39,608 nt of DNA from an uncultured Blautia sp. (GTDB lineage: Bacteria > Bacillota > Clostridia > Lachnospirales > Lachnospiraceae). The position numbers were made by a program, and so were the translations under genes. The notes under the pieces are model-generated. The model was not told the DNA's origin. It did no database searches and was given only the letters and a program-made list of their open reading frames with translations. Within the stretch, counting starts at the first letter, position 1; every line of letters starts with the position of its first letter. Location: assembly GCA_946545475.1 (NCBI GenBank), contig CAMNNO010000006.1, forward strand, positions 1 through 39,608, in the 5' to 3' direction. Positions 120 to 35,815 of this stretch are shown one piece after another.

Positions 120-2189
120 TTAAAGTGTGATGTGCGAGAGCTTTGTCTTATTATAATACTCTGTCCGCTCCCTGATGCCGCGGTTCTCATCCTTTTCCAG
201 GAGCGGATCATCGGAAAGGACAGCCGCCGCGGCGCCTGCCGCTTCTTCAAGGACATGCGCGTCCTGATAGATGTCCCCGATCCCAAATTCGATCACGCCG
301 CTCTGGCGGATGCCGAACAGGTCGCCGGGGCCGCGCATTTTCAGGTCCTCGGAGGCGATCTTAAAGCCGTCGTTGCTTTTCGTCAGGACATTCAGCCTCT
401 TCGAGACGGCTTCGTCTTCCTTTCCCTGCATGAAGATGCAGTAAGACTGCTCCTTTCCTCTTCCCACCCGGCCTCTCAGCTGATGAAGCTGCGCCAGGCC
501 ATAGCGCTCGGCGTTTTCGATCATCATGACCGTGGCGTTCGGCACGTTGACGCCCACCTCAACGACGGTCGTGGAGACTAGGACATCGATATGGCCCGCG
601 GCAAAATCCGCCATGATAACCGTCTTTTCCCTGGGCTTCATCTTTCCATGGAGAATGCCGACGCGAATGCGCTCCGGAAGCTCTTCCTTTAAGGAGCGGG
701 CATAGTCGATGACGTTTTCAGCTTCCATTTCTTCGCTCTCTTCCACCATGGGACAGATGATATAAACCTGACGGCCTTTTTCGCACTGTGCGGCGATAAA
801 CCGGTAAGCGTTGGGACGCCAGGCCGTATTGACCAGGCAGTTTTTGACCGGGAGCCGGTTTTTCGGTTTTTCATCCAGGATGGAAATGTCCAGATCCCCG
901 TAAAGGATAAGGGCGAGGGTCCGGGGAATGGGGGTGGCGCTCATGACCAGGACATGCGGCGTATGGCCTCTTTCCAGGAGATTTTCCCGCTGGCGGACGC
1001 CAAAGCGGTGCTGCTCATCGGTAATGACAAGGCCGAGGTTATTATAGGAAACGTTTTCCTGCAAAAGGGCATGGGTCCCGATAGCTATCCGGCAGGTTCC
1101 CAGAGCCAGGCTTTCCAGCGCTTTCCTTTTTTCTTTGGCCGGTGTCTCGCCTGTCAGCAGGATGGGCCTGTAGGCGTCGAGGAGCCCGTTCTTTTCCAGA
1201 AGCTCCTTCATATCCTGGTAATGCTGCGAGGCCAGGACGGATGTCGGGGCCAGCAGGACCGACTGGTAGCCGTTTTCCGCGGCCAGTATCATGCCAAGGA
1301 AAGCCAGGATGGTCTTTCCGCTGCCGACATCTCCCTGCACCAGCCGGGACATGAGGGCGTCCTTCCGGCACATGGCATCCTCGATCTGGCGCCAGGCATT
1401 CGCCTGCGCCCCGGTCAGGCGATAGGGGAGGGAGCCGATAACCTGTTCCGTCTGCCACGTTTTTTCCATGGGATAATGATTCTCCTCCCGGACCCCGCGC
1501 TCCCGGAGCTGCCGCACGATGAGGACAAACAGGAAAAATTCATCAAAGACCAGGCGATGCCTGGCGGCGAGAAATGCCTCCTCGCTGTCCGGAAAGTGTA
1601 TCGCCTTAAGAGCCTGCATTTCATCGGAAAGACCAAAATCCTTCCGGATCTTTTGCGGAAGGTAATCCTCGGATGAGAGCGCTGGCGCCAGGGTGTCAAG
1701 GGCATTTTTAATATATCGGCTGAGAGCTTTGTTAGACAGGCCGGATGTGAGGGCATAGACCGGGAGACGTTTCCCTTCGATCTCATGATAACTGTCAGAT
1801 GTGAATATTTCGGGCATTTCCATTTGCAGCCGCCCGTGCCGCCTTGTCAGGCGCCCGCGGAAGACATAAGAAATATCCCTTTTCAGAACGCTTCGAAGAT
1901 ACGGTGAGCGGTACCAGATGACGGGCAGTCTGTCCTGGCCGTCGGTAAACTCGGCGGTCGTAACCGATAGGGCCCTATGCTGTGAAACGGTAACGGGGGA
2001 GGCCAGGCGGACACAGATGGAGCAAAGGCTCCCCTCCCTGAGCTCGGAGATTTTCACGCAAGGCTCATAAAAGTCATATCGGCGGGGATAATAATAAAGC
2101 AGGTCCCGCCGGGTGCTGATCCCAAGCTTGTTTAGGAGGGTTTCTGTCTTTTCTCCAATGCCCTTGATCTGGCGGATAGGGGTATTCAT
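120..2189 (-). CDS. recG: ATP-dependent DNA helicase RecG
   Basis: Helicase motifs GDVGSGKT, DEQHRFGV, MSATPIPRTLAL and QLRGRVGRG. ORF runs to 2204; start at MNTPIRQIKGIG (2189) preferred because of the GGAGG RBS. Confidence 0.97.
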   Translation of the reverse strand: MNTPIRQIKGIGEKTETLLNKLGISTRRDLLYYYPRRYDFYEPCVKISELREGSLCSICVRLASPVTVSQHRALSVTTAEFTDGQDRLPVIWYRSPYLRSVLKRDISYVFRGRLTRRHGRLQMEMPEIFTSDSYHEIEGKRLPVYALTSGLSNKALSRYIKNALDTLAPALSSEDYLPQKIRKDFGLSDEMQALKAIHFPDSEEAFLAARHRLVFDEFFLFVLIVRQLRERGVREENHYPMEKTWQTEQVIGSLPYRLTGAQANAWRQIEDAMCRKDALMSRLVQGDVGSGKTILAFLGMILAAENGYQSVLLAPTSVLASQHYQDMKELLEKNGLLDAYRPILLTGETPAKEKRKALESLALGTCRIAIGTHALLQENVSYNNLGLVITDEQHRFGVRQRENLLERGHTPHVLVMSATPIPRTLALILYGDLDISILDEKPKNRLPVKNCLVNTAWRPNAYRFIAAQCEKGRQVYIICPMVEESEEMEAENVIDYARSLKEELPERIRVGILHGKMKPREKTVIMADFAAGHIDVLVSTTVVEVGVNVPNATVMMIENAERYGLAQLHQLRGRVGRGKEQSYCIFMQGKEDEAVSKRLNVLTKSNDGFKIASEDLKMRGPGDLFGIRQSGVIEFGIGDIYQDAHVLEEAAGAAAAVLSDDPLLEKDENRGIRERTEYYNKTKLSHITL

Positions 2190-5072: not shown

Positions 5073-5104
5073 TCCCCTGCTGACTATCAGCAGGGGATTT
5101 TTTT
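5073..5104 (+). terminator. Intrinsic terminator of rpmB
   Basis: TCCCCTGCTGA-CTA-TCAGCAGGGGA followed by T7. Confidence 0.93.
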
Positions 5105-5194
5105 ATTATGGCAGGGCCACCCATAAGAAATTTGTCACCTGACGGTGACGGGTGGCCCGCCGGGGGTAGAGGCGAGGCAAGCCTCCCTCTACCC
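5105..5194 (+). repeat. Modular structured repeat, unit A
   Basis: ATTATGGCAGG, then GGCCACCC/GGGTGGCC enclosing ATAAGAAATTT and GTCACC-TGAC-GGTGAC, then hairpin GGGTAGAGGcGAGG-CAAG-CCTCCCTCTACCC. Confidence 0.85.
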
Positions 5195-5195
5195 T

Positions 5196-5293
5196 ATTAT
5201 GGCAGGGGCGCCAATCGGAAATAGTCACCTGGCGGTGACGGGCGCCGCCTCGCGGGCGAGTAGGAGGGGAGAATCCCCTCCTACTCGCCCGCG
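5196..5293 (+). repeat. Modular structured repeat, unit B (tandem with A)
   Basis: ATTATGGCAGG, then GGCGCC/GGCGCC enclosing AATCGGAAATA and GTCACC-TGGC-GGTGAC, then a perfect 20-bp stem CGCGGGCGAGTAGGAGGGGA-gaa-TCCCCTCCTACTCGCCCGCG. Confidence 0.85.
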
Positions 5294-5301
5294 CAGAAGA
5301 A

Positions 5302-13053: not shown

Positions 13054-13164
13054 ATCTTATCTCCTCTTATGGGCCGAAGGCAGGCTTACCTTTCCTCTGC
13101 CCCGGCAGAGCACCGCCGGCTGAGCGTTTCCGGCCGGTGTCCCTTTCATCATAATCAAACATAC

Positions 13165-13257
13165 AATAGGGTAGAGAGAGACGTATTCTCCCTCTACCCC
13201 GGCGGGCTGCCCGTCACCGTCAGGTGACAAATTTCTTATGGGCTGCCCTGCCATAAT
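13165..13257 (-). repeat. Modular structured repeat, unit C
   Basis: Minus strand: ATTATGGCAGG, GGGCAGCCC...GGGCAGCCC (one A.A mismatch) enclosing ATAAGAAATTT and GTCACC-TGAC-GGTGAC, then GGGTAGAG...CTCTACCC. Confidence 0.85.
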
Positions 13258-13258
13258 C

Positions 13259-13287
13259 AAAAAGGGGAAGGCCCTTTTGCCATTCCC
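13259..13287 (-). terminator. Intrinsic terminator of zapA
   Basis: Minus strand GGGGAATGGCAAAAGGGCCTTCCCCTTTTT: stem GGGGAA-GGC/GCC-TTCCCC, then T5. Confidence 0.75.
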
Positions 13288-13315
13288 CATTTACACAATA
13301 TCTGTGCGGATTTTC

Positions 13316-27594: not shown

Positions 27595-27666
27595 ATAATC
27601 GAGTAGGAGGGGAATCTTCCCCTCCTACTCGCCCGCGGGGAGACGTATTCTCCCCCTGCCATAACT
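27595..27666 (-). repeat. Modular structured repeat, unit D (reduced)
   Basis: Minus strand: TTATGGCAGG, GGGGAGA-ATACG-TCTCCCC, GCGGG, CGAGTAGGAGGGGAA-GA-TTCCCCTCCTACTCG, ATTAT. Confidence 0.8.
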
Positions 27667-27670
27667 GCAA

Positions 27671-27708
27671 GCGGGGCCAGACCCCTTTTGAAAGGGGCCG
27701 GCCCCGCC
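27671..27708 (-). terminator. Strong hairpin 3' of the OadA-like gene (no clear T-run)
   Basis: GCGGGGCC-aga-CCCCTTT-tg-AAAGGGG-cc-GGCCCCGC. Confidence 0.55.
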
Positions 27709-35662: not shown

Positions 35663-35763
35663 CCTGCGATAATCGAGTAGGAGGGGAACCTTCCCCTCCT
35701 ACTCGCCCGCGGGGCGGCGTTCGCCGCTAGGCGATGATTTCCTTATGCCGCCCCTGCGATAAT
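35663..35763 (-). repeat. Modular structured repeat, unit E, flanked by 11-bp direct repeats
   Basis: CCTGCGATAAT at 35663-35673 and 35753-35763; between them GGGGCGGC/GCCGCCCC with inner TCGCC-TAGC-GGCGA, and CGAGTAGGAGGGGAA/TTCCCCTCCTACTCG. Confidence 0.88.
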
Positions 35764-35770
35764 GACTAAC

Positions 35771-35815
35771 AAAAATCCCTGACACCTGCCAAGCAGGAGT
35801 CAGGGACTTTTTTAA
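35771..35815 (-). terminator. Intrinsic terminator of rpsU
   Basis: Minus strand TCCCTGACTCCTGC-TTGG-CAGGTGTCAGGGATTTTT. Confidence 0.9.

Follow-up and report, generated by a model that had tools for sequence, protein, structure and literature searches.

REP, BIME and REPIN sequences are high-copy, non-autonomous intergenic hairpins of bacterial chromosomes that carry an unpaired base, occur as several subfamilies per genome differing by compensatory stem changes, and are mobilised by RAYT (Y1) transposases [PMC2817692, PMC3116915, PMC3733652]. MITEs and palindromic elements derived from IS200/IS605 are likewise small and non-autonomous [PMC10969869]. Class C group II introns, the only terminator-targeting element of which we are aware, insert immediately behind Rho-independent terminators [PMC8919778], and the pneumococcal BOX elements are modular intergenic repeats in a Firmicute [PMC3049150]. 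Here, we analysed a 39,608-nucleotide stretch of an uncultured Blautia sp. genome (the window), in which a preliminary description had reported five units of an unrecognised repeat at four intergenic loci. We found that the units belong to a family with over 200 copies in this genome, mostly located directly behind transcription terminators, and that the same shape with different letters occurs in about a quarter of the Lachnospiraceae genera sampled. The best reading, held with moderate confidence, is a non-autonomous mobile DNA repeat that is recognised by its fold and lands behind terminators. It resembles REPs in being a high-copy intergenic hairpin with an unpaired base, with subfamilies that differ by compensatory stem changes, although its tandem copies are in direct order, it has a fixed place behind terminators, and RAYT genes are absent or unlinked to it.

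Structure and position of the units

The five units are present where the preliminary description placed them, so its observation is confirmed, and the scale of the family was understated. The features of the window are as follows.

5074–5104 (+), intrinsic terminator of rpmB (CCCCTGCTGA..TCAGCAGGGG followed by a T-run), directly upstream of unit 1
5106–5198 (+), unit 1 (84.9 bits): TTAT; P1 formed by 5110–5112 and 5114–5122 with 5150–5161; bulged A at 5113; bulge at 5123–5133; P2 formed by 5134–5139 with 5144–5149; P3 formed by 5164–5172 with 5186–5194; final ATT
5197–5294 (+), unit 2, in tandem with unit 1 and sharing the TT of ATTAT; P3 extended by GCCCGCG
13257–13292 (-), terminator-like hairpin GGGGAA..TTCCCC followed by TTTTT, directly upstream of unit 3
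13165–13256 (-), unit 3 (82.8 bits), with P1 GGGCAGCCC/GGGCAGCCC containing an A-A mismatch
27671–27707 (-), strong hairpin GCGGGGCC..GGCCCCGC, upstream of unit 4
27597–27664 (-), unit 4 (57.4 bits), a rearranged derivative with the 5' box, an inner hairpin taken from a P3 tip, then a normal P3 and ATTAT
35771–35807 (-), intrinsic terminator TCCCTGAC..GTCAGGGA followed by a T-run, behind rpsU and upstream of unit 5
35671–35762 (-), unit 5 (104.2 bits)
35663–35672 (-), 10-base 5' fragment TTATCGCAGG of a further unit, directly after unit 5 and in tandem with it

Unit 2 overlaps unit 1 by two bases and is therefore dropped from the cmsearch table as an overlap, but it is plain in the sequence. 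A full unit, of about 93 bases, begins with TTATSGC, followed by a bulged A, a GC-rich P1, a one-sided bulge of 10–12 bases (ATAAGAAATTT or GTAAGGAAAT), a P2 hairpin with a four-base loop, the second half of P1 ending in GCS, a P3 hairpin and a final ATT. The P1 and P2 pairings given in the preliminary description are correct, but P1 is longer than it proposed: the ambiguous S of the ATTATSGCAGG box is a paired position, as SGC, the bulged A and GGG... close with ...CCC GCS (GGC/GCC or CGC/GCG; C-G in 18 cases, G-C in 9 and one exception), so that the supposedly conserved box is itself half of the stem. Unit 4 lacks the normal P1 and P2, and its inner hairpin GGAGAATACGTCTCC is the tip of a P3 of the other subtype. 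Between unit 3 and an 868-aa gene (13080–13150, -) lies a GC-rich leader with inverted repeats (CCGGCCGG..CCGGCGG), without an Rfam match at gathering score.

Abundance, distribution and covariation

In the 3.33 Mb genome, the box TTATSGCAGG occurs 234 times against 6 for the reversed pattern, and the 3' motif occurs 137 times against 4. A cmsearch of the sequence stretches examined around copies gave about 90 good copies. Several contig ends (contigs C280, C36, C170, C294 and C86 of this genome) fall inside units, and these repeats therefore probably break short-read assemblies. Among the stretches around copies, a unit at 983–1105 (-) of stretch L077 carries a triplicated 15-base piece, AAGTATCTCGGCTTA, in the bulge/P2 region, a sign of slippage, and at 1455–1585 of stretch L305 two units meet head to head through one shared P3 hairpin.

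A covariance model built from this genome detected 43 and 41 copies in two other species of the genus and 13 in a third. In those species, the stems have other letters (GGC/GCC, CCC/GGG, GAGCCGCCC/GGGCGGCTC, GGGACGGCG/CGCCGTCCC) but the same shape. A P1/P2 model built from seven genomes matched 94 of 397 genomes of the family (87 of 334 genera) at E<=1e-4, many of them with copy numbers that are minimum values; single-copy hits were not checked one by one. At E<=1e-5, a cut that about 84 of the 397 family genomes pass, it matched none of 398 other genomes sampled across the phylum, which doubles as a specificity control.

By eye, three architectures were distinguished. In group A, which includes this window, a host terminator is followed by the TTAT-unit and a P3 of the form CGAGTAGG..CCTACTCGATT or GGGTAGAGG..CCTCTACCCTATT. 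In group B, a conserved hairpin ATCTCAGTCG..CGACTGAGAT, which resembles IS200/IS605 ends, is followed by AAACGCTCCGCGAGG, the core and a P3 AAGTC..GACTTGAA; in the complete genome G412, this is an element of ~215 bp with sharp ends and unrelated flanks. In group C, a hairpin ATAGGAAA..TTTCCTAT is followed by the core and a P3 that is itself a terminator, and several of these again follow a host terminator. The bulged A and the GGAA-type bulge occur in all three groups.

Using a structure-naive MAFFT alignment of 36 sequences from seven genomes, we found that 94.7% of cells pair and that 16 of 18 P1/P2 pairs change on both sides (117 cells), although cells count sequences and not independent events. 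None of 500 shuffles reached this value, and slid structures paired in 37–48% of cells. RNAalifold found the same fold unaided. Across genera, 99.0% of cells pair, but that alignment was fitted to the model. While the stems covary, a bulged A and an AAGGAA-type bulge persist.

The preliminary description had proposed selection on a folded RNA or ssDNA, and had listed beforehand the outcomes that would count against it: no further copies, no significant covariation, or a match to an element already described. Further copies exist in the genome and in relatives, covariation is far above the shuffled and slid controls, and no match at gathering score in Rfam 15 was obtained for the window and ten relatives, permissive hits over the units being chance hairpins below gathering. 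The proposed interpretation is thus supported, with the evidence leaning to DNA rather than RNA. It had not included the terminator association, the full length of P1 with its bulged A, the family-wide spread, the Watson-Crick character of the stems or the distribution of Y1/RAYT transposases. It had also noted a modular resemblance to BOX and BIME elements without a sequence link; the resemblance to BIME is one of kind and is not shown as homology, while no BOX model (boxA-boxB-boxC modules) was compared here and we are aware of no sequence link. The aligned cores contain no R/L boxes with the GTT/AAC core of integron attC sites, and the copies lie between ordinary genes and not in a cassette context. 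Literature searches by words and by sequence strings returned no description of the element in the sources searched.

Terminator context and the nature of the folded strand

A strong hairpin (<= -9 kcal/mol) with its foot within about a dozen bases of the unit lies upstream of 71 of 74, 30 of 32 and 33 of 34 units in three species. Mean energies are -24.8, -24.4 and -22.1, against -9.1 in shuffles, -9.3 further upstream and about -7 directly downstream, and the last bases before the unit are T-rich. The upstream gene is on the strand of the unit in 56 cases and on the opposite strand in 13, as called by codon scoring, since calling strands by the longest ORF was unreliable in this GC-rich genome. 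At the rpmB-gerW locus, 20 other species of the genus for which both flanks could be placed have a terminator or terminator-like hairpin after rpmB and no unit, and the unit was therefore inserted behind a pre-existing terminator at this locus, the one that was checked. Tandem copies follow the P3 of the previous copy, again a hairpin with ATT.

The constant orientation behind terminators, the conserved bulge and loop and the strong covariation could also be explained by a structured RNA element in read-through 3' UTRs, acting in RNA stability or back-up termination and spread because it is useful to the host. In a structured RNA, G-U should be tolerated and A-C should not. In P1 and P2 of copies from three species, G-T and A-C departures are about equal, 66 and 62 (summed by hand from per-pair lists), as expected if no RNA strand is under selection copy by copy, although neutral decay of old copies would look the same. 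The stronger evidence is that 28 distinct best copies from many genera hold 483 Watson-Crick pairs out of 489, with 1 G-T and 5 A-C. Terminators at the same loci contain 7.9% G-U, but that count comes from folding, which counts G-U by design. Moreover, the unit lies behind and not before the terminator, so it is rarely transcribed from the upstream gene, and species-specific amplification and tandem arrays fit mobility better. The RNA reading therefore appears unlikely, and these data favour recognition of a folded DNA strand. Template-switch correction of quasipalindromes could also keep stems Watson-Crick without selection, but it is not expected to preserve a bulged A across genera. The element is a clear case in which helix covariation, usually read as proof of a structured RNA, points to folded DNA instead.

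Proposed mobilisation of the repeats

Considering these data together, we favour a family of small non-autonomous mobile DNA repeats, REP/MITE-like in behaviour, which share their target preference with class C group II introns without being such introns. The analysis demonstrates a family-wide, structure-conserved core (P1 with one bulged A three pairs from its foot, a 5' AAGGAA-type bulge and the P2 hairpin) with a 3' hairpin P3, high copy number with species-level amplification, placement directly behind an intrinsic-terminator hairpin in the same orientation, head-to-tail tandem copies, and insertion behind a pre-existing terminator at one locus. That an enzyme acting in trans recognises the core as a folded DNA strand and joins it to DNA just 3' of a strong hairpin followed by T-rich sequence is, on the other hand, our inference. 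In this view, a terminator would supply that hairpin, and the P3 of an earlier copy could supply it too, which would explain tandem arrays, while placement behind terminators would spare host genes and leave the repeat mostly untranscribed. In the absence of strain-level empty sites, exact ends and any target duplication were not defined, and neither the enzyme nor a host effect has been identified. The group B core had no match in plasmid or phage records, nor had group B or C patterns in viral contigs, so the element looks chromosomal, like REPs. Of 14 copies examined in G412 (group B), 7 lie on each strand, which gives no sign of the replication-strand bias expected of lagging-strand ssDNA transposition. 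Lachnospiraceae are major gut bacteria and, if this reading holds, intrinsic terminators are landing sites for a DNA element recognised by its fold and moved by an enzyme still to be named. A more far-reaching possibility, which we regard as doubtful but which cannot be excluded, is a new mobilisation system, neither Y1-HUH nor intron-based, that recognises the bulged A and the AAGGAA-type bulge of a folded DNA strand and uses terminator hairpins as landing sites, with element and enzyme having diversified together across Lachnospiraceae.

A bacterial SINE was also considered, in which an RNA of the bottom strand is reverse-transcribed from a 3' end in the terminator T-run by a resident reverse transcriptase, with a target choice like that of class C group II introns. 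The shared insertion site directly behind intrinsic terminators, the excess of the 5' box over the 3' motif (234 against 137) and the truncation of several copies at scattered points on the 3' side are consistent with it. However, the asymmetry of truncation is weak, as 2 of about 27 3' ends are 5'-truncated, and the 3' motif is less conserved. The unit has 93 bases and no ORF, its stems contain almost no G-U, and no group II intron match was found in Rfam at gathering score in the window and ten relatives; an intron-encoded reverse transcriptase was not sought in this genome, nor were element-rich genomes surveyed for reverse transcriptases. This explanation is considered improbable.

A conventional DDE-transposase MITE, whose hairpin core would be incidental and kept perfect by quasipalindrome correction, is equally improbable. 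Its imperfect terminal inverted repeats would be TTATCGC.AGGGG against AATCGAGTAGGAGGGG, TCGAG(Y)AG at the right end is shared by groups A and B, and TT follows the right end in 28 of 32 copies. As the ends are only partly similar and no strain-level empty site was seen, these observations do not settle whether true terminal inverted repeats and a target-site duplication exist. Against this reading, the bulged A and the one-sided bulge are kept across genera, the target is a hairpin and not a short sequence, and no parent transposon or parent transposase with matching ends was seen, although only Y1_Tnp was searched, which leaves the existence of a parent undecided. The group B core had no match in plasmid or phage records, nor had group B or C patterns in viral contigs, so the element looks chromosomal, like REPs.

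Mobilisation by a RAYT transposase is very unlikely and already largely refuted. The element is of the same kind as REPs, and RAYT-like genes seem commoner in element-rich genomes (about 10 of 40 against 1 of 22). However, the GTAG or CGTC tag is missing from the 5' foot of the hairpin, which is TTAT in group A and GATGCGC or GATCGCA in groups B and C, with GTAG occurring only inside the paired P3 stem. The second defining feature, a cognate linked RAYT gene, was also lacking: the three Y1 hits in this genome are IS200/IS605-like with unrelated ends, Y1_Tnp is absent from 13 of 39 element-rich genomes, including a one-contig genome, and no core was found near 12 RAYT-like loci. Lachnospiraceae RAYT-like genes are instead flanked by their own repeats, often GGGGACGGTTCTC-type hairpins (stretches L361, L362, L366, L367, L370 and L371), and a similar one occurs in this genome, in the upstream flank of stretch L098. 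A second dispersed repeat, about TACTCGCGAACGAATTTAA..GCATATACCGCGGCA, lies beside several units of this genome (flanks of stretches L010, L016, L152, L068 and L076).
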